From: a virus
IMG/VR virus record: IMGVR_UViG_3300034118_001269
Location: 1 to 20,142 of that record
Length of the DNA stretch: 20,142 bases
Direction: 5' to 3' (one strand)
The translations under genes were made by a program, and so were the position numbers. The notes under the pieces are model-generated. The model was not told where the DNA came from. It made no database searches and saw only the letters and a program-made list of their open reading frames with translations. Positions 1 through 7,478 of the stretch are shown piece after piece. Each line of letters starts with the position of its first letter. The stretch's first letter is position 1.

Positions 1-3000
1 CACATTCGTCCAGCTTTTAGGTAGTTTATTTGCCTTAAATACTTCAAATCCACTAAGGGAGACTTCTTTAGCTAATGCACCCTTTTTAAGATCGATTGTC
101 GGGACAATGATTTCAGTTTTAAGATATTTAGCGCCAGTTCGACGATACTCAGGAGAATCTACACCAAAAATAATTTGAGCTAATGTGCCATTGGGATTCC
201 AAAAGCCAAATCTTTTGAGCAGTTTTTCTGATACAGGTTCACCTGCTTTTACACCTAGTAATCTGCTTACATTATCAGGTAGCGTATAGCCCTTTTGTCT
301 TGTACCGACTAATTGTGTTTTTGCAATAGATTCCCAATCAAAGTCACTATTTGACGGTTTTGCATTTGCCAAATAATCTTCAGCTAATCTACCAAAATAC
401 CTAGTAAAATCTTTAAGTATAGGGACTTGCTCTGATAAGTATTCACTCATGATTCTAGCAATTGCTTTAAAATCATCAGGTGTAACTACTTTTTCGTACG
501 ACTGAGACAACTTCTCAACAAGTTCTTTTGTTTTAGGTTCTAGAAAATAAAGCTGATCTAAAATTTCATCGCCAGGATCTAAACCTTTATTAAAAATGTC
601 TCTGACATTTTGTCGTAATTGTCGAAGTTCCTCGGCAGTTTCTGGATCAAATTTTTCGTATCTTGCAATTCTTGCAGAAATCTCATTAAGAACTACATCT
701 CTTTCAGAAGCCTTGACGACTAAGACATTCTCTTGCTTATCTAAAACCTTAGACAGTTTACCTTCTACATTTAGGCCACTGGTTTTTTCGCCAGCGCCGT
801 AGAATGTTACCATGTTTTGCGCCTTAGAAGCTTTTCTCAAATCTTTTTCATTTAAGCCTAACTTTTGGTTGAGTTCTCTAAACCTAGGATCATTATAAGT
901 TAATGCCGCAATTTCGTCATACAAACGTTTCTTTTGGTTTGTAGGGACTACATTGCTAAGTTCTGCCAGCTGTTTATTACGAGTCGTTAATGCAATAATC
1001 TGAGCGCCAGAAGACGAAGCATCTTGTTCTAAGGCTAGCGCTGTTTTGTAATCACGAAGCCTTTGAAGGTTTTTAACTGAATACTTTGAACCGAGACTGT
1101 CAGTTGCTAAGTAATTATCAATTTTAGCAGTCTCTAACGCAAAACGCAAAAACTTATTAAGTTCTTCGCCATCAATTTTTTGAAATATTTCAGATTCTAA
1201 AATAGCACGAATATCTGCTGGTTTCTTTCTAAGCATGTGATTGCCAATGCGAACAAGCTCAGGACGCCACTTTTCTGCTATCTTCTGTCTTCCTGTGATT
1301 GATAGAGAATTAAACTTTCCCTCAAAGTAATCGCTAAGTCCTCCTAAGAAAGATCCGATCTGATCTTGAAAGTTCTCAAAATCTTCGGGACTAAAGTTCT
1401 TAGCTACATCTGTATTTAGAAAGGGTCTAAATGTTTCACCAGACTGAGGACCGATTAAACCACGATCATAAATACGTGCTCGATGATCAATAAAAGGATG
1501 ATTACTAAACGCCTTGTCATCTTTACGAAGCCATTCCATTGCCTTAAAACGCTCGTAAGCGTCGCCACGGCTTGAAATATATTTTCGATATTCATTCAAA
1601 TCATTATACTTTTTAGCTTGACCCTTGTCGTCCTCAAAATATAATAACTTTTGTGTAAAATCAAAATAGTCTTCGTCAATTTTATACTTAGCTTTGGAAG
1701 CCCAATTCAAAGCATCAACTAGATTTTTGTCTACAAATTCTTCAGGGAAATCACTAAAGCTGCTAGTTGATGTAATTGGAATTCTTGTATCTTCTAACCC
1801 TAAAATTCCTCTATCAATGAAATATGTTTTGTAGCCTTCTCTAAATAGAAGCCTATTTTTGTCTTCTGTTACAGAAACTCGAAGACCAAGTTCAACTTTT
1901 CTATTTAGCTTAGCGTACTCTTGAATTCTAGGATCTACAATTCTAATATTATAAGATAACGCATCATAGTACGGACCAAAATATTGACCGCTTAGTCTGC
2001 TTTTCATTCTTCGCTTTTGAACACCGAAAGTTTCAACTTCGAAGAATTTCTTAACGTTCTTGGCTTCTAAGAGTTTCATGCCAAGATCGTACCATTCACG
2101 CCGATTGCCATTAAAATTTGCAAGATTGTAAAGATCTCTTCCTAACGAAACTGCAAAGCTGTCTCTATCTGGCGAATCTGCTAAGCTCAAACGATGAGCA
2201 AACTTTAAATAGAATTGCTGCAAATCGCGGTCAGATACCCTTAAACGTATTTTAGCGGGTATTTTGTAATCAAATACTGTTCTTAATTCCTGCGCGATTT
2301 TAGGAGCTGTTTTATCTTCCCACTTATTTCTTGCAAGAATATTAGAAATGAAATTATCATGAAGTTCCTGTAACTGTGTAGGACCTAAAACAGGATCTAA
2401 GTAGTTATCCTGAAGAAGCTTCTTTAAAACATCAGAATCCTTTCGAATTTGAGTTTCAATAGCATCCGAAACGTTCATTACATCAAACTTTATTTGACCT
2501 TGAACTACCGCTTTAAAATTTGTCCAGGGCTCTTTGTTATCTCTGTATCTGCTAAAGATAATTCGAAGATTGTCCGCGACAACAGCTCTTTCGTTTACAC
2601 TCATTTTCTCAGAAAGACCATCCAAAACTTTAGATATAAATTCCCTGTCTCTGTCCAATAACTTATCACTTTCTTGGATAAGTCTTGTGTTGTTAGCCAA
2701 GACAGCTGAATTTGGTTGATATAATCTAACGTCTTCATATCGTCCTGTTATCGGATTGAACTTTAGTTGGTCTTCTCGAGGAGGAGACGTTAATACCCGA
2801 TTTTTAACGCCACGTTTGACATTTGTAAGAACACCTCGATAGTTAGTTAGCGATAGTGTCCCGTTCAACTCTGCGCTTTGTAACAAGTAATAATCCACCA
2901 ATGTTTTACGAAGCTTCTCATTATCGATAAAGTCGTCAGGTGTACTTGCTCCTAATTGCATTGCATCTAATTTTTCTTTTGCAATTGCAAATCTCTTAGT

Positions 3001-4068
3001 GTCATTTGGCAATGTATAGCCACTATCTGTAATGGCGCGGAGCTCTTTTATACCGACGGAGTTGCCTTCTGGATTAGTAAATCTGTCTAAAGTTAACTGA
3101 CCACTATTAAGCAATTCAACTTTTTGATAATCACCTAGATGTTTTAGTTGAACGTCTTTAGGCTGACGAAGCAGCCAAGAATTGTAAGATTCTCGCAAAG
3201 GCGTTTGTCCGTCATAATATGATATTTGATCTTTGCTCAAATTCTCAATATTACGTCGGCGTATTTGAGCTACACCTTCTAGCTTGGAAATATCATCCCA
3301 AGATTTAAAAACAGGCACGGTTGTCGATCTGCAATGAAAATGTGCAGGAGGCAGATAAGAGGTCTCAGACATATCATATATCTTACCATCTCTGTGTATA
3401 CAAATTGGTGTTGTACGAGAATCTAGCACAGAAACATACTGCCAACCTCTAATAGCTTGACTATTAGCCTTATAAACTTCGTGGTCAGTTTGCGAAGTAA
3501 CTGAGGTTACGGCAGTTACAACAAGACCTTTTGATTGTGATCTTGTTATATTGTGAATATTTCCTTTTCGGAGGTCTAAAGCTATCTCGTCGATTGTATG
3601 ATTTTCTGCTATACCTTTTCGAATTAAAGCTTCGAGCCGCTTCTTTTCAGCTGTACTAACGCTAGCCCAACCAGCAGCTAGAGTTTGATCTTGATATAAA
3701 GGTCTTTGAAGAACAATATCTTCAGCAACTCTTTTAGCAGGTCTTTCTGTACGCCAAATTTTACTCATTGCAACTTCAACTGTCTGATAAGTGTATGACA
3801 GTTGATCAGAAACTAAATCAAGCAATGAACGTTTTGTAACATTAAATGTTTCTTTATGAGTTTTAAGCAATTCTTTATCAATTGCCTCAAACAATTTATT
3901 TCGACCTTTAACTGATAAGTCTCCGTCACGGACAATTCCGTCAAGCCTACCAGTATGTTCGTTTATTATTGATTCTACTTTCTCGTTAATACGTCTTTCA
4001 TAGAGCCTGATCATTGCAGCTCTGTTTATCGTTCTGTCGTATATATCAGTATTAGCGTTATTCGCCAT
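1..4068 (-). CDS. MuF head-morphogenesis domain fused to single-subunit (N4/T7-type) RNA polymerase, C-terminus cut by window edge
   Basis: One frame stays open for 1356 codons from ATG 4068 to the left edge; I checked every codon and found no stop. Residues about 90-255 match the Mu F / SPP1 gp7 minor head protein family: LDSRTTPIC at 215-223, HRDGKIY just after, and PPAHFHCRSTTVPV at 240-253. Downstream are RNA polymerase signatures: DHRARIY at 861-867 (T7 has DWRGRVY), motif A DASSSGAQ with Asp 1016 (T7 DGSCSGIQ, catalytic Asp537), and motif B with Arg 1078, Lys 1082, Tyr 1090 and Gly 1091, spaced exactly as T7 R627/K631/Y639/G640. Motif C is not visible; in N4 virion RNAP it lies 273 residues after the motif B Tyr, and only 266 residues remain here. 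Residues about 260-780 match nothing I recognise. The RBS GAGAGG precedes the ATG. The portal gene lies upstream. Inferred role: a capsid-packaged RNA polymerase held at the portal and ejected with DNA for early transcription. The MuF call is very sure and the polymerase call strong. Confidence 0.9.
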   Translation of the reverse strand, partial: MANNANTDIYDRTINRAAMIRLYERRINEKVESIINEHTGRLDGIVRDGDLSVKGRNKLFEAIDKELLKTHKETFNVTKRSLLDLVSDQLSYTYQTVEVAMSKIWRTERPAKRVAEDIVLQRPLYQDQTLAAGWASVSTAEKKRLEALIRKGIAENHTIDEIALDLRKGNIHNITRSQSKGLVVTAVTSVTSQTDHEVYKANSQAIRGWQYVSVLDSRTTPICIHRDGKIYDMSETSYLPPAHFHCRSTTVPVFKSWDDISKLEGVAQIRRRNIENLSKDQISYYDGQTPLRESYNSWLLRQPKDVQLKHLGDYQKVELLNSGQLTLDRFTNPEGNSVGIKELRAITDSGYTLPNDTKRFAIAKEKLDAMQLGASTPDDFIDNEKLRKTLVDYYLLQSAELNGTLSLTNYRGVLTNVKRGVKNRVLTSPPREDQLKFNPITGRYEDVRLYQPNSAVLANNTRLIQESDKLLDRDREFISKVLDGLSEKMSVNERAVVADNLRIIFSRYRDNKEPWTNFKAVVQGQIKFDVMNVSDAIETQIRKDSDVLKKLLQDNYLDPVLGPTQLQELHDNFISNILARNKWEDKTAPKIAQELRTVFDYKIPAKIRLRVSDRDLQQFYLKFAHRLSLADSPDRDSFAVSLGRDLYNLANFNGNRREWYDLGMKLLEAKNVKKFFEVETFGVQKRRMKSRLSGQYFGPYYDALSYNIRIVDPRIQEYAKLNRKVELGLRVSVTEDKNRLLFREGYKTYFIDRGILGLEDTRIPITSTSSFSDFPEEFVDKNLVDALNWASKAKYKIDEDYFDFTQKLLYFEDDKGQAKKYNDLNEYRKYISSRGDAYERFKAMEWLRKDDKAFSNHPFIDHRARIYDRGLIGPQSGETFRPFLNTDVAKNFSPEDFENFQDQIGSFLGGLSDYFEGKFNSLSITGRQKIAEKWRPELVRIGNHMLRKKPADIRAILESEIFQKIDGEELNKFLRFALETAKIDNYLATDSLGSKYSVKNLQRLRDYKTALALEQDASSSGAQIIALTTRNKQLAELSNVVPTNQKKRLYDEIAALTYNDPRFRELNQKLGLNEKDLRKASKAQNMVTFYGAGEKTSGLNVEGKLSKVLDKQENVLVVKASERDVVLNEISARIARYEKFDPETAEELRQLRQNVRDIFNKGLDPGDEILDQLYFLEPKTKELVEKLSQSYEKVVTPDDFKAIARIMSEYLSEQVPILKDFTRYFGRLAEDYLANAKPSNSDFDWESIAKTQLVGTRQKGYTLPDNVSRLLGVKAGEPVSEKLLKRFGFWNPNGTLAQIIFGVDSPEYRRTGAKYLKTEIIVPTIDLKKGALAKEVSLSGFEVFKANKLPKSWTNV

Positions 4069-4077
4069 ATCAACCTC

Positions 4078-4185
4078 TCAGCTGCGGTAGTCGCAGGATG
4101 GCCCCGACTGGTACCCAGGCTGCCTGCAGGTGCAATTTTTTACAAATGGCCATACCTCAGCCATGTCATATGCACCCGCAGACAC
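4078..4185 (-). CDS. Possible Cys-rich microprotein (tentative)
   Basis: A short frame ends at TGA 4078-4080, just before the ribosome binding site of the MuF-polymerase gene. From ATG 4164 it encodes 28 residues; from the in-frame GTG at 4185 it encodes 35. The peptide has three cysteines (KNCTCRQ and PSCDY) and reads like a plausible protein. The close fit to the next gene matches the operon style. Against it: the start signal is poor (a GGGTG eight bases before the ATG), it is much more GC-rich than neighbouring genes, and it overlaps a strong RNA stem that could explain the segment instead. I do not recognise a family. Confidence 0.35.
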   Translation of the reverse strand: MSAGAYDMAEVWPFVKNCTCRQPGYQSGPSCDYRS

Positions 4186-4200
4186 CTAGGACCGCTTTAA
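4081..4200 (-). ncRNA. GC-rich structured intergenic element (candidate RNA or hairpin regulatory element)
   Basis: The largest gap between confident genes (158 bases) holds a GC-rich island: 37 of 60 bases are G or C in 4081-4140. On the minus strand, the arm at 4190-4171 pairs with the arm at 4134-4114 over 20 base pairs with one bulged G. Three pairs are G-U wobbles, which form only in the minus-strand (gene-sense) RNA; on the plus strand they would be C-A mismatches. The loop (4170-4135) holds a smaller hairpin, AUGGCU/GGCCAU. A separate hairpin, CTGCG/CGCAG, lies at 4096-4082, and GCGGU at 4195-4191 can pair with ACCGC at 4088-4084. No U-tract follows, so it is not a standard terminator. 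No known ribozyme core was recognised. It sits directly upstream of the MuF-polymerase start and could control its translation. Confidence 0.4.
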
Positions 4201-4387: not shown

Positions 4388-4999
4388 TTACACCTGTTTG
4401 AATTGTCTTTGATAGCCTGTTATTTTTGCTTTTTCTTCTAATGATTTATTTGCAGCATCTGCAGTTCTTTTTCCAGCTTCGGCCCTATCAGCTTTGTAGC
4501 CTTGATAAGCTCCAATTGCGCCGCCAATAACAGCACCCGCAGCAACTTTTGCAGGAGTAGGGGCTCCTAATGCCTTAAGACCCATATAACCTACCGCACC
4601 ACCAAGTGCACCAAGCGCGCCTGTATTTACTGTTGCAGCAGCTCTCAGAATATTTCGATTCTTATTAGTTTCGGGACTTAAATACTTCTCGGTAGACTTT
4701 GCAGATAGAAAGCCTGCACCGGCACCTACAGCACCACCTATCACTGCAGCTTTAGTGCCCGAACCAATTGCATTTGTAGCAAGCCTAGCTCCGCCAACAC
4801 CACCTAAAGCTGCTGCACCTCCAATAGCAGCACCGGCGGCACCATACTTAACTGTTTTATCAACAGCTTCCCAGCCTTGTTTAGACTTTTCTTTAGTACT
4901 GGCAAATACACCTCCAGCCTTTACTTTAGTTTTTTCAACTATTGCTTTAGCTTTTCCTGTGTATTGATTTATACCTTCAGGATTATTTATTTTATTCAT
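4388..4999 (-). CDS. Gly/Ala-rich glycine-zipper membrane-like protein, candidate internal/ejection protein
   Basis: A 203-residue protein of unknown family. The N-terminus carries [12 protein letters not shown], nearly the same as in the protein encoded at 5465-5902, then [11 protein letters not shown], which recurs in altered form in both proteins just upstream. Residues about 50-180 hold three Gly/Ala-rich hydrophobic stretches with small residues at i, i+4 spacing (for example [24 protein letters not shown] and [15 protein letters not shown]), typical of glycine-zipper membrane helices. The C-terminus is charged and helical. The start ATG 4999 lies ten bases after the upstream stop; its ribosome site is weak (AAG). 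Position between portal and the MuF-polymerase gene suggests a capsid-internal protein that could help DNA or polymerase cross the cell envelope; this is inference. A scaffold role is also possible. Confidence 0.8.
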
Positions 5000-5009
5000 A
5001 ACGACTTGA

Positions 5010-5465
5010 TTACCTGCTATTTAGTTTGTTTTTTAGTGATTGTCTAGCTTTTTCTGGATACTCATTAAGACTATTCACACCTCTTTGCGTCTTTTTACCA
5101 AGATAGTCTGCAGCAGTTACAGCACCCATGAAAGAAGTAGCACCAACTGCAAGAGTTCGGTAAGCTAACTGTTTATCTGTTTTATCCATGCCCCGAGTTG
5201 CAGAAAGACCTAAAGCAGCTCCTCCTATAGCTCCTATAGGAGCTCCAACAGCTGCTCCTGCAGCGTATGCTGCACTTTGTCTAACATCAATAGCTTTGTC
5301 ATTGAATTTATCTAATTTTTTAGCAGTATTTGCAAAAGCTCCGCCTGCTACAACTTTTGCACGGTTACTGGCATTTTGAATTGCAGCAATACCTTTCTTA
5401 GCATGATTTTTTGCAGCATTGGTGTTGCCTTTGAGAGCTTCACTGATTTTTTCATTTACGGCCAT
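5010..5465 (-). CDS. Small Gly/Ala-rich protein with membrane-like segment, candidate internal protein
   Basis: A 151-residue protein. ATG 5465 is chosen because it overlaps the upstream stop as TAATG and follows GGGGTGG; an in-frame ATG four codons earlier is possible. The N-terminus is basic and helical (KGNTNAAKNHAKKG), followed by VVAGGAFANT, an echo of the GG-x-FA motif in both neighbours. Residues about 65-90 form a Gly/Ala-rich hydrophobic stretch (AAYAAGAAVGAPIGAIGG) with glycine-zipper spacing, and a second one lies near residues 107-120. The C-terminus is charged. It is the middle of three consecutive small genes between portal and polymerase. No catalytic motif is visible. A role in the ejectosome or inner virion is inferred from position and composition only. 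Confidence 0.78.
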   Translation of the reverse strand: MAVNEKISEALKGNTNAAKNHAKKGIAAIQNASNRAKVVAGGAFANTAKKLDKFNDKAIDVRQSAAYAAGAAVGAPIGAIGGAALGLSATRGMDKTDKQLAYRTLAVGATSFMGAVTAADYLGKKTQRGVNSLNEYPEKARQSLKNKLNSR

Positions 5466-5902
5466 TATCCACCCCACATGCGTTTACGAATATTTTGAGC
5501 AATTTGTTTTGTGTCAACTACAGTTTGTTTGGCAAAAGCTTTGCTATAATCAATAGGATTACTTATTTTTCTATAATTTGCAGAAGCTTCTGAAATAAGG
5601 ATAGATCTATTCATTTCTTCATTAGCTTTTTGTGATGCAGATAAAACTTTTTTATACTCGTTCTCAGAAAGATCATTTCGAAAGCTCGGAGGAATTTTCT
5701 CGTATTTTTGATAAGCTTGACCAGCTTCTTTATTCGCAGCTTCAGCTCTTTTATAGGAATCGGTTGTAAGGGTATTTAATGTCTTTTGTGTGTTTTTAGT
5801 GGCAAAATAACCACCAATAGAATACCTGTAAGGCTCAGAAGATTTACCCTTTCCAGTATATTGATTTTTACCTTCAGGATTGTTTACTTTATTGTCCGGC
5901 AT
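5465..5902 (-). CDS. Small helical protein with NNPEGxNQYTGK leader, downstream of portal
   Basis: A 145-residue, charged, mostly helical protein. It begins MPDNKVNNPEGKNQYTGKGK, the same leader as the protein encoded at 4388-4999, then SIGGYFATKN, related to the AGG-x-FA motif of the next two proteins. Unlike them it has no long hydrophobic stretch. Its middle is rich in Lys, Glu, Ala, Ser and Tyr with heptad-like character. ATG 5902 lies one base after the portal stop, so translation is probably coupled; the stop overlaps the next start as TAATG. The NPEG...QYTG leader recalls short N-terminal motifs seen in phage head-region proteins, but I cannot name a family. Scaffold, internal head protein or polymerase partner are all possible. 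Confidence 0.78.
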   Translation of the reverse strand: MPDNKVNNPEGKNQYTGKGKSSEPYRYSIGGYFATKNTQKTLNTLTTDSYKRAEAANKEAGQAYQKYEKIPPSFRNDLSENEYKKVLSASQKANEEMNRSILISEASANYRKISNPIDYSKAFAKQTVVDTKQIAQNIRKRMWGG

Positions 5903-5903
5903 T

Positions 5904-7478
5904 TTATAAACCCTCTGTGTTAGCTATTTTACTTGCATAATCAGACGACCCCTGTTGAGCTTTCATTACAGCCTCCATATCAGCTGTAATTTCCATTTTA
6001 CCTTCTTCATCATCATAGTCAGGAGGTATCATATCGTTTTGCTTGAGAATCATTAACCAAATAGAACGAGGAATCAGACCTTGTTGGTACCACTCTGTAG
6101 CAAGTCTCAACCAATCGGCGCCTAAGGGTATTGGATTAAAGTCTGAAGACAAACTAAAGTTAATATCTTGAGGTCTCAACTGAAGATTGTATCTCCAATT
6201 GATCATAAAGCAAATCACTGCCCTCAAAGTAGAGCTTATTTTAGTATTCAAAGAACCTAATTGAGCGTTTTGAGCTGCATTTCGAATTTCAAGAGCAATA
6301 CCAGATTGAGCAGATTCTGGGCTCAGCATTCGAATGCCAAGCTTTGCCATTTCCTCAATAGCTGCAGCAATAGCCCTGTCCATATCTTGCAATGCGGCTG
6401 TAGGTGTTTCTAAAACCTTTGCTTCATCACCTTGCCTAAGCCTCAGCCAAGAACCTAAGCCTTTGTTAACCACTTCTTCAAATTCATCATCATTCATGTC
6501 AGACATGATGACTGGAGTATAAGTAGAAGCTCCATATAGCAAATGATTTCGTCTGCTTATCTTATTGTAAAGACTGACCTCTTTATCAATAATAGGCATT
6601 AAAATTGGCTCTAATAAATTAACTGAGCCATTCAAAGGCCAGGCAGGAATTATCCTAAGCCTTTCGCCATTATTTAAAATATTTTGAATAGTCTCTACTA
6701 ATTCAAACGAAGGTTTTCGGTTAGAAAATTCTTTTTGTTGTTGACCATTTACAACTTGTACAGAAGTTGTATCAGACCTTTGCTGAAATACTCTGATCTG
6801 ATAAAAGCCTGATTCATCGAGTTCATGCACACGAACTGTGTCTTTAAAAGATGGATGGAACTCGTTCTTTTCGAAAGACTCTTCATAAGATCGCACAATT
6901 ACACGATCTAAAATCATCTTACCAAAAGGATCCTTACGCGTTCTCCAATTAATAACTGAATCGGCTTGCCAGAGTACGGGGTACGGCTTTAACAGCTGCT
7001 TATCTTCTACACTAAGAGTGTCTGGGTCTACTACAGGGTGATCTACATAAATCCAAGCACGGCTTGTTTGTAATTCTTCCCACAATGCCGCATCAAGAAA
7101 GCCAATAAGACTTGAATCATCTTGACCAAACTGGTTCATAATCCAGTCTTGAACTTCTTCAGGTATTCCCGGAGGTAATGAAAGCACAGGTTGCTTTCTA
7201 AGCAAGCCTCCAACAAGCATTTTAGCAAATTGCGCAACAATACCAGGCAGCTCAGCTTCTGCCTTGTAAAACTGGTACTGTTGAGCTGTCATACTAGGGG
7301 AGAACGGAATTAAAAGATTTGTAAAATTACCAACATCTAGGTAACTATCAAAATCTTTTGTAAAACGCTCTCCACTGCAGATAGCACGGCTTTTCTGCCA
7401 CAAAGGTCTTAAGGATTCGTATTCAGCATTTGGATCTGAGACAGTTTTATTTGCAAGAGCAGCATTTACAACTGCCAT
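5904..7478 (-). CDS. Portal protein, DUF4055-like
   Basis: A 524-residue protein whose length and layout fit the DUF4055 family of phage portal proteins, the dodecameric ring at one capsid vertex through which DNA is packaged and ejected. Supporting features: an N-terminal region with YLDVGNFTNLLIPFSP and AKMLVGGLLRKQP (about 45-115), the aromatic segment SRAWIYVDHP (about 139-148), a middle region RIIPAWPLNG preceding a long helical stretch with NKISRRNHLLYG (about 275-315), then SAQSGIALEIRNAAQNAQL near 390-410, a helix-rich stretch typical of portals, and a polar C-terminus. The MuF-domain gene lies downstream, as expected for portal/MuF pairs. ATG 7478 follows GAGAGG by eight bases and lies four bases after the previous stop. 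The family name is from memory; the portal call is fairly sure. Confidence 0.82.
   Translation of the reverse strand: MAVVNAALANKTVSDPNAEYESLRPLWQKSRAICSGERFTKDFDSYLDVGNFTNLLIPFSPSMTAQQYQFYKAEAELPGIVAQFAKMLVGGLLRKQPVLSLPPGIPEEVQDWIMNQFGQDDSSLIGFLDAALWEELQTSRAWIYVDHPVVDPDTLSVEDKQLLKPYPVLWQADSVINWRTRKDPFGKMILDRVIVRSYEESFEKNEFHPSFKDTVRVHELDESGFYQIRVFQQRSDTTSVQVVNGQQQKEFSNRKPSFELVETIQNILNNGERLRIIPAWPLNGSVNLLEPILMPIIDKEVSLYNKISRRNHLLYGASTYTPVIMSDMNDDEFEEVVNKGLGSWLRLRQGDEAKVLETPTAALQDMDRAIAAAIEEMAKLGIRMLSPESAQSGIALEIRNAAQNAQLGSLNTKISSTLRAVICFMINWRYNLQLRPQDINFSLSSDFNPIPLGADWLRLATEWYQQGLIPRSIWLMILKQNDMIPPDYDDEEGKMEITADMEAVMKAQQGSSDYASKIANTEGL

Follow-up and report, generated by a model that had tools for sequence, protein, structure and literature searches.

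A phage gene joining a MuF head-morphogenesis domain to a single-subunit RNA polymerase, a candidate virion polymerase

This work concerns a gene at the end of the IMG/VR virus fragment G000, a stretch of 20,142 bases (the window) whose main genes lie on the minus strand. In one open reading frame (ORF) of that strand a MuF/SPP1 gp7 domain is followed, with no stop between them, by a single-subunit RNA polymerase (RNAP) of the T7/mitochondrial type. We consider it likely that the product is a virion RNAP, delivered by its MuF part, which starts a cascade of two polymerases. The frame begins with an ATG at 4068 and stays open through base 1, the window end, thus it comprises 1356 of about 1545 codons; the 3' end of the gene is missing because the fragment ends there. 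The gene and its parts are the following:

1..4068, minus strand: MuF-RNAP fusion gene, 5' 1356 codons of about 1545 (open frame; record ends; relatives full length)
3031..4068, minus strand: MuF/SPP1 gp7 head-morphogenesis part, amino acids (aa) 1-346, with the PF04233 core at 3319-3636 (PF04233 and phrog_241 matches; MuF-only proteins align to about aa 4-349)
1..3030, minus strand: single-subunit RNAP part, aa 347 onward, truncated (profile matches; structure model of the homologous part of relative L005)
1468..1488, minus strand: T/DxxGR motif, DHRARIY, aa 861-867 (aligns with T7 RNAP)
1000..1023, minus strand: motif A, DASSSGAQ, catalytic Asp at aa 1016 (motif comparison with relatives)
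796..837, minus strand: motif B, RKASKAQNMVTFYG, aa 1078-1091, site of group I introns in relatives (motif comparison with relatives)

A preliminary description, made from the letters of the window, had proposed a MuF domain running without a stop into an RNAP, and the profile searches bear this out in one frame. PF04233 matched the window protein at aa 145-250 (E=1.2e-11; 45.7 bits, the curated Pfam cut-off being 29.6), and phrog_241 ('head morphogenesis') matched aa 1-346 with E=1.4e-59. RNAP models matched within aa 1000-1110, among them phrog_414 ('RNA polymerase') at aa 1005-1099 with E=1e-9, while PF00940 remained, on the truncated window copy, slightly below its cut-off (E=1.3e-4). The motifs quoted in that description were found as well, DHRARIY at aa 861, DASSSGAQ at aa 1016 and R-x3-K-x7-YG at aa 1078-1091; in the last of these the Lys, Tyr and Gly are invariant, whereas the Arg is not, being replaced by Q, K or A in a few lineages. 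Alignments with the MuF proteins of other phages, e.g. the Pelagibacter phages Kolga and Aegir, end at about residue 349, thus the fusion point was placed there. Apart from MuF and RNA_pol, no Pfam domain scored above its cut-off in the fusion protein, and profile searches found no toxin domain fused to MuF: the C-terminal part is the RNAP. The window contains no tRNA genes.

Relatives of the fusion and the fold of its polymerase part

A scan of IMG/VR yielded 173 relatives, of which 80 loci were kept, with proteins 58-94% identical to that of the window. Most of the full-length copies consist of one uninterrupted ORF of about 1540-1580 codons; they come from dozens of contigs and from other samples. 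There are 345 invariant columns among 40 distinct full-length copies, and all four catalytic motifs (T/DxxGR-type, A, B and C) are present in 32 of 32 full-length representatives. The catalytic aspartate of motif C, whose absence, according to the preliminary description, would speak against a polymerase, was looked for in the full-length relatives and is present there: motif C reads HDAFF in every one of the 32 representatives and in the phage DSS3_VP1, at a position that lies beyond the window. The ratio of nonsynonymous to synonymous substitution rates (dN/dS), relative to the closest relative, was about 0.04 in the RNAP part and about 0.07 in the MuF part. The same uninterrupted ORF in contigs of other samples, the invariant columns and the low dN/dS exclude a chance fusion or an assembly artefact, and purifying selection on the fusion is strong.

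The cultured roseophage DSS3_VP1 (Naomviridae, NC_055826) has a related protein, gp108, of 1463 aa and about 30% identity, in which both Pfam models score above their cut-offs. It is annotated as 'head morphogenesis'; for this protein and gp47-gp49 of EBPR siphovirus 1 together the labels are limited to that one, 'minor head protein' and 'head protein'. By its name, the host of DSS3_VP1 is Ruegeria pomeroyi DSS-3. JAOUJT010000001.1 (74,179 bases), which belongs to this phage group and was binned in a metagenome-assembled genome of Gammaproteobacteria, gives a weak hint about hosts.

Some relatives have an interrupted fusion gene. Inserts with an HNH endonuclease occur in the motif B codons of several of them (L016, L047, L066, L075, L077; also L073, L082), and five motif B inserts matched a group I intron model of Rfam with 73-89 bits. 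In EBPR siphovirus 1 (L082) the fusion copy, gp47-gp49, is split around an HNH endonuclease gene, which stands at the motif B place without an Rfam match above threshold. A related in-frame domain of about 230 aa was seen at two other insertion places, after motif B (L062, L065, L067, L069, L070, L072) and before motif A (L081). We considered whether these domains are inteins; they had neither a Pfam match nor obvious intein ends, and the assignment was dropped. In the 91.9 kb record G028 the fusion gene is found in several pieces with intervening sequence (30616-37436), probably owing to several introns.

The fold of the part after the MuF domain, which the preliminary description had proposed to check, was predicted with AlphaFold2 for the polymerase part of the homologue L005 (1195 aa; pLDDT 76, pTM 0.70), and it is that of a single-subunit RNAP. 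A Foldseek comparison of the model with the PDB gave 74 matches with E up to 0.001, the best being human mitochondrial RNAP (E=1.5e-18) and T7 RNAP (2.8e-17). Among the matches listed (50 of the 74) all are human or yeast mitochondrial or T7 RNAP structures, and the two double-psi beta-barrels of a two-barrel virion RNAP, the type of P23-45 and crAss-like phages, were not seen among them; identity in the structure alignments was very low, 11-15%. When viral models were searched, the first match was a protein of 1463 aa, the length of DSS3_VP1 gp108 (E=1.8e-60), followed by T7-like polymerases and then by N4-type virion polymerases.

Comparison of sequence profiles pointed the same way. With the DSS3_VP1 row added, the profile matched T7 RNAP at E=4.5e-4. 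In hhalign comparisons the fusion polymerase aligned with the phages' own T7-like RNAP over 247 columns (E=3.4e-4, modest probability), and with N4 virion RNAPs (vRNAPs) in the motif B region only (E=0.0071, probability 5%). Membership in the N4 vRNAPs was rejected after comparison with six schitovirus cores, the similarity not being significant. A match to the PDB entry 1uly_A was lost once the divergent DSS3_VP1 row joined the profile and was thus taken as chance. The remark in the preliminary description that N4 gp50 is not a MuF fusion was right, and judged by these profiles the fusion polymerase is a separate, more T7-like lineage and not an N4 vRNAP.

Second polymerase, promoter-like motif and head module

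All 25 records searched encode the fusion, and a free T7-like RNAP, usually of about 750 aa, was found in each of the 21 that are 49.8 kb or longer; the four records without it are fragments under 48 kb. When the search started from the second RNAP, each of the 11 further records with a length of at least 63 kb proved to encode the fusion (in three it is cut by the contig end), and four fragments of 54 kb or less had no MuF at all. DSS3_VP1, too, encodes a separate RNAP (gp080) besides gp108. A long in-frame insertion brings the second RNAP of G004 and G023 to 926 and 994 aa.

The relatives share a 16-bp core, CCCGTTAAATTAACCC, of which 87 of 89 distinct copies (14/16 or better, all loci) lie on the gene-oriented strand. 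Five genomes have 5 to 7 plus-strand copies each, and 26 of these 27 are intergenic, although intergenic sequence makes up only 4-7%; order-1 Markov controls gave zero copies. The core precedes the second-RNAP operon and is also found after the fusion gene, before the capsid operon. Of the sites compared, 40 lie after the fusion gene; there AGG mostly follows the core, and a short inverted repeat often does so too. A C-rich run some 10 nt past the core was found at 19 of 24 sites upstream of the second RNAP, vs. 5 of 40 after the fusion gene; in L203 and L172 this run belongs to a second, degenerate copy of the core. In a comparison with the small hairpin promoters of N4 type, GTTAAATTAAC proved palindromic, but the promoters of the fusion RNAP and of the second RNAP were not distinguished. 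EBPR siphovirus 1, a partial record, has four intergenic copies of the core (13-15 of 16). These conserved, strand-specific motifs look like promoters of phage polymerases. In the window itself the best match to the motif was 12/17, and none was credible. A different repeated promoter-like motif, TAGGGTACGTTAAAGARGG, was observed at about 8 intergenic sites of DSS3_VP1 (NC_055826).

The genes of the relatives were called by a simple ORF picker, thus the boundaries of small genes are approximate. In G002 the genes follow each other on one strand in the order terminase, tail-spike-like gene, portal, MuF-RNAP, scaffold, major head protein, tape measure, second RNAP, DNA polymerase and primase/helicase. 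This order runs across contig ends, the genome being taken as circular or circularly permuted. Of five contigs examined, G010 (74,179) and G019 (71,703) carry direct repeats of 100 bases or more at their ends and are therefore probably complete. In many loci the gap between the portal stop and the fusion start is 24 nt or less. A scaffold-like gene lies next to the fusion, and no protease-like gene was identified there among the few genes scanned. The neighbours of the fusion gene in the window are:

5904..7478, minus strand: portal protein (DUF4055; phrog_145, E=4e-56), in one late module with the fusion gene and upstream of it (profile matches)
5465..5902, minus strand: small protein with the tag NNPEGKNQYTGK, in the slot between portal and MuF-RNAP (ORF, slot comparison)
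5010..5477, minus strand: small Gly/Ala-rich protein with a KGNTNAAKNH tag, same slot (ORF, slot comparison)
4388..4999, minus strand: small Gly/Ala-rich protein with the N-terminal tag NNPEGxNQYTGK; the slot is variable (ORF, slot comparison)
4066..4200, minus strand: putative structured RNA element immediately 5' of the fusion gene, present in a few relatives and without an Rfam match (folding, comparison)

The slot between portal and MuF (4388-5902 in the window) holds 0 to 6 small, often Gly/Ala-rich proteins in many loci (e.g. L003, L007, L047). They have N-terminal tags in common, KGNxNAxK or NNPxGxNQYTGK, and it is possible that they are packaged or ejected cargo. The putative RNA element at 4066-4200 is GC-rich and folds strongly in the window (z = -4.4) and less so in two relatives (-1.1 and -2.7). 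It was also seen upstream of the fusion gene in L016, L010, L013, L014 and L047, with some compensatory changes among five sequences. An Rfam scan of the window gave no credible match.

A two-polymerase cascade and its alternatives

According to the reading we prefer, the fusion would be made late in infection from the head operon. Like SPP1 gp7, it would attach to the inside of the portal, by its MuF part, and a few copies of the T7-type polymerase would thereby be enclosed in the procapsid. In the next infection the fusion protein would leave the head with or ahead of the DNA and transcribe the first genes, including the operon of the second, free T7-like RNAP, which would then transcribe the middle and late genes. 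What mainly speaks for packaging on logical grounds is that a protein made from the late head operon must travel to the next cell to be of use in early transcription. There are precedents. A few copies of SPP1 gp7 are targeted into the procapsid by the portal, and toxins are fused to the C-termini of gp7-like proteins (PMC6316719); phages are proposed to have used the gp7 route for such C-terminal toxin cargo (PMC6316719, PMC5576092). Virion polymerases, namely N4 vRNAP and the tape measure protein-RNAP of P23-45, are each paired with a second phage RNAP (PMC4496689, PMC10770324). A packaged polymerase is thus supported by its fit to the gene order, the co-occurrence of the second RNAP, the promoter-like elements and the behaviour of SPP1 gp7. 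Packaging, ejection, catalytic activity, the pairing of promoter and polymerase, the sequence of events in the cascade and its independence from host sigma factors are inferences.

Several points weigh against this reading. The window copy ends before motif C, which is thus known from the relatives only. A folded polymerase of about 1200 aa must pass the narrow tail of a siphovirus, for which it would probably have to be unfolded. The same core is found at early-looking and at late operons, hence a promoter that only the MuF-RNAP would use is not told apart from one read by the second polymerase. Furthermore, AT-rich stretches which, judged by eye, could be host -10 boxes occur in about half of the elements at the second-RNAP operon, and the host polymerase could therefore start the cascade.

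A different explanation would be that the fusion is not injected and acts late in the same infection, e.g. by transcribing late genes or by linking transcription or the handling of DNA with packaging at the portal, while the host RNAP transcribes the early genes and thereby yields the second RNAP. The position of the fusion gene in the late module, the promoter-like motif before the capsid operon directly after it and the possible -10-like stretches in some second-RNAP operon elements would agree with this. We nevertheless regard it as unlikely: the phages already have a free T7-like RNAP, whose gene sits beside the replication genes in another operon, and a second late polymerase would be redundant; MuF proteins, moreover, are enclosed in heads (PMC6316719, PMC5576092), where a polymerase meant for the cytoplasm would be sequestered. 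It could also be that the polymerase half is a DNA-binding or structural cargo of the head or tail, e.g. for the control of ejection, with little or no RNA synthesis. SPP1 gp7 was proposed to bind DNA non-specifically and to control ejection, and it aids the efficiency of infection (PMC4493119, PMC6316719). Such a role seems very improbable to us, since a purely structural domain would not need the catalytic residues, which are kept across very diverged homologues, with a dN/dS of about 0.04.

In other phages maturation proteases commonly trim head proteins, and the MuF and RNAP parts might likewise be cleaved apart after synthesis, the freed polymerase, packaged or not, acting alone. No gene split was seen at the MuF/RNAP boundary, the only splits being the motif B inserts, and the lack of an identified protease-like gene beside the fusion, mentioned above, also speaks against cleavage, to which we give hardly any credence.

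If the fusion is a MuF-delivered virion polymerase, it would widen the cargo of MuF from toxins to core information enzymes, account for a polymerase hidden behind the annotation 'head morphogenesis' and supply a candidate phage-specific promoter. N4-like, crAss-like, jumbo and P23-45-like phages are known to have virion RNAPs, and the loading device, different in each, is poorly understood. Here a short and common module that has been studied in part (MuF/SPP1 gp7) would do the loading, and the enzyme belongs to the simple T7 type, which makes packaging and ejection of a polymerase testable in the cultured DSS3_VP1. Tentatively, one might go further and picture a widespread group of long-tailed phages transcribed largely by their own enzymes: a T7-type polymerase tethered to the portal by MuF might enter with the DNA, transcribe it during entry from dedicated tandem promoters and turn on the second T7-like polymerase, and MuF might be a general loading adaptor for any enzyme needed in the first minute.

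Comparison with known systems

MuF fusions and virion polymerases are each known, and their combination appears to be new in so far as we found no description of a MuF-RNAP fusion in the open-access full texts searched or in the accessible portions of surveys of polyvalent proteins and MuF toxins; the genome paper of DSS3_VP1 lay outside that scope and may contain a prior mention. Among the closest known systems are DSS3_VP1 gp108 and EBPR siphovirus 1 gp47-gp49, relatives which combine MuF with RNAP under annotations that do not name a polymerase, the EBPR copy being the one split by the HNH gene.

It is instructive to compare the fusion with MuF/SPP1 gp7 proteins and MuF-fused effectors (PF04233; PMC5576092, PMC5512222), with which it shares the N-terminal MuF domain, the gene position after the portal, a C-terminal effector and the expected enclosure in the head. 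The effectors reported there are toxin, RelA/SpoT or RNase domains, whereas the present one is a full single-subunit RNAP. N4 vRNAP (Schitoviridae gp50; PMC4496689, PMC12633501) resembles the fusion in its single-subunit RNAP fold, in being a late gene of virion type and in the presence of a second phage RNAP. It is, however, about 3500 aa long, with long N- and C-terminal regions and usually a metallopeptidase domain, in contrast to about 1545 aa with an N-terminal MuF, and in hhalign its core was less close to the fusion than the T7/mitochondrial type, neither probability being high. In gp96 of Thermus phage P23-45 (PMC10770324) an RNAP is likewise fused to a structural virion protein, in a phage with a long tail and a second, non-virion RNAP. 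There a two-barrel (multisubunit-type) RNAP sits on the tape measure, whereas here a T7-type RNAP is joined to a portal-associated MuF and the tape measure is a separate gene. With the T7-like phage RNAPs (PF00940) the fusion has in common the motifs DxRxRxY, A, B and C and the overall fold; those enzymes are about 880 aa long and unfused, while the RNAP part of the fusion, at 11-15% identity, is about 1200 aa long and attached to MuF.

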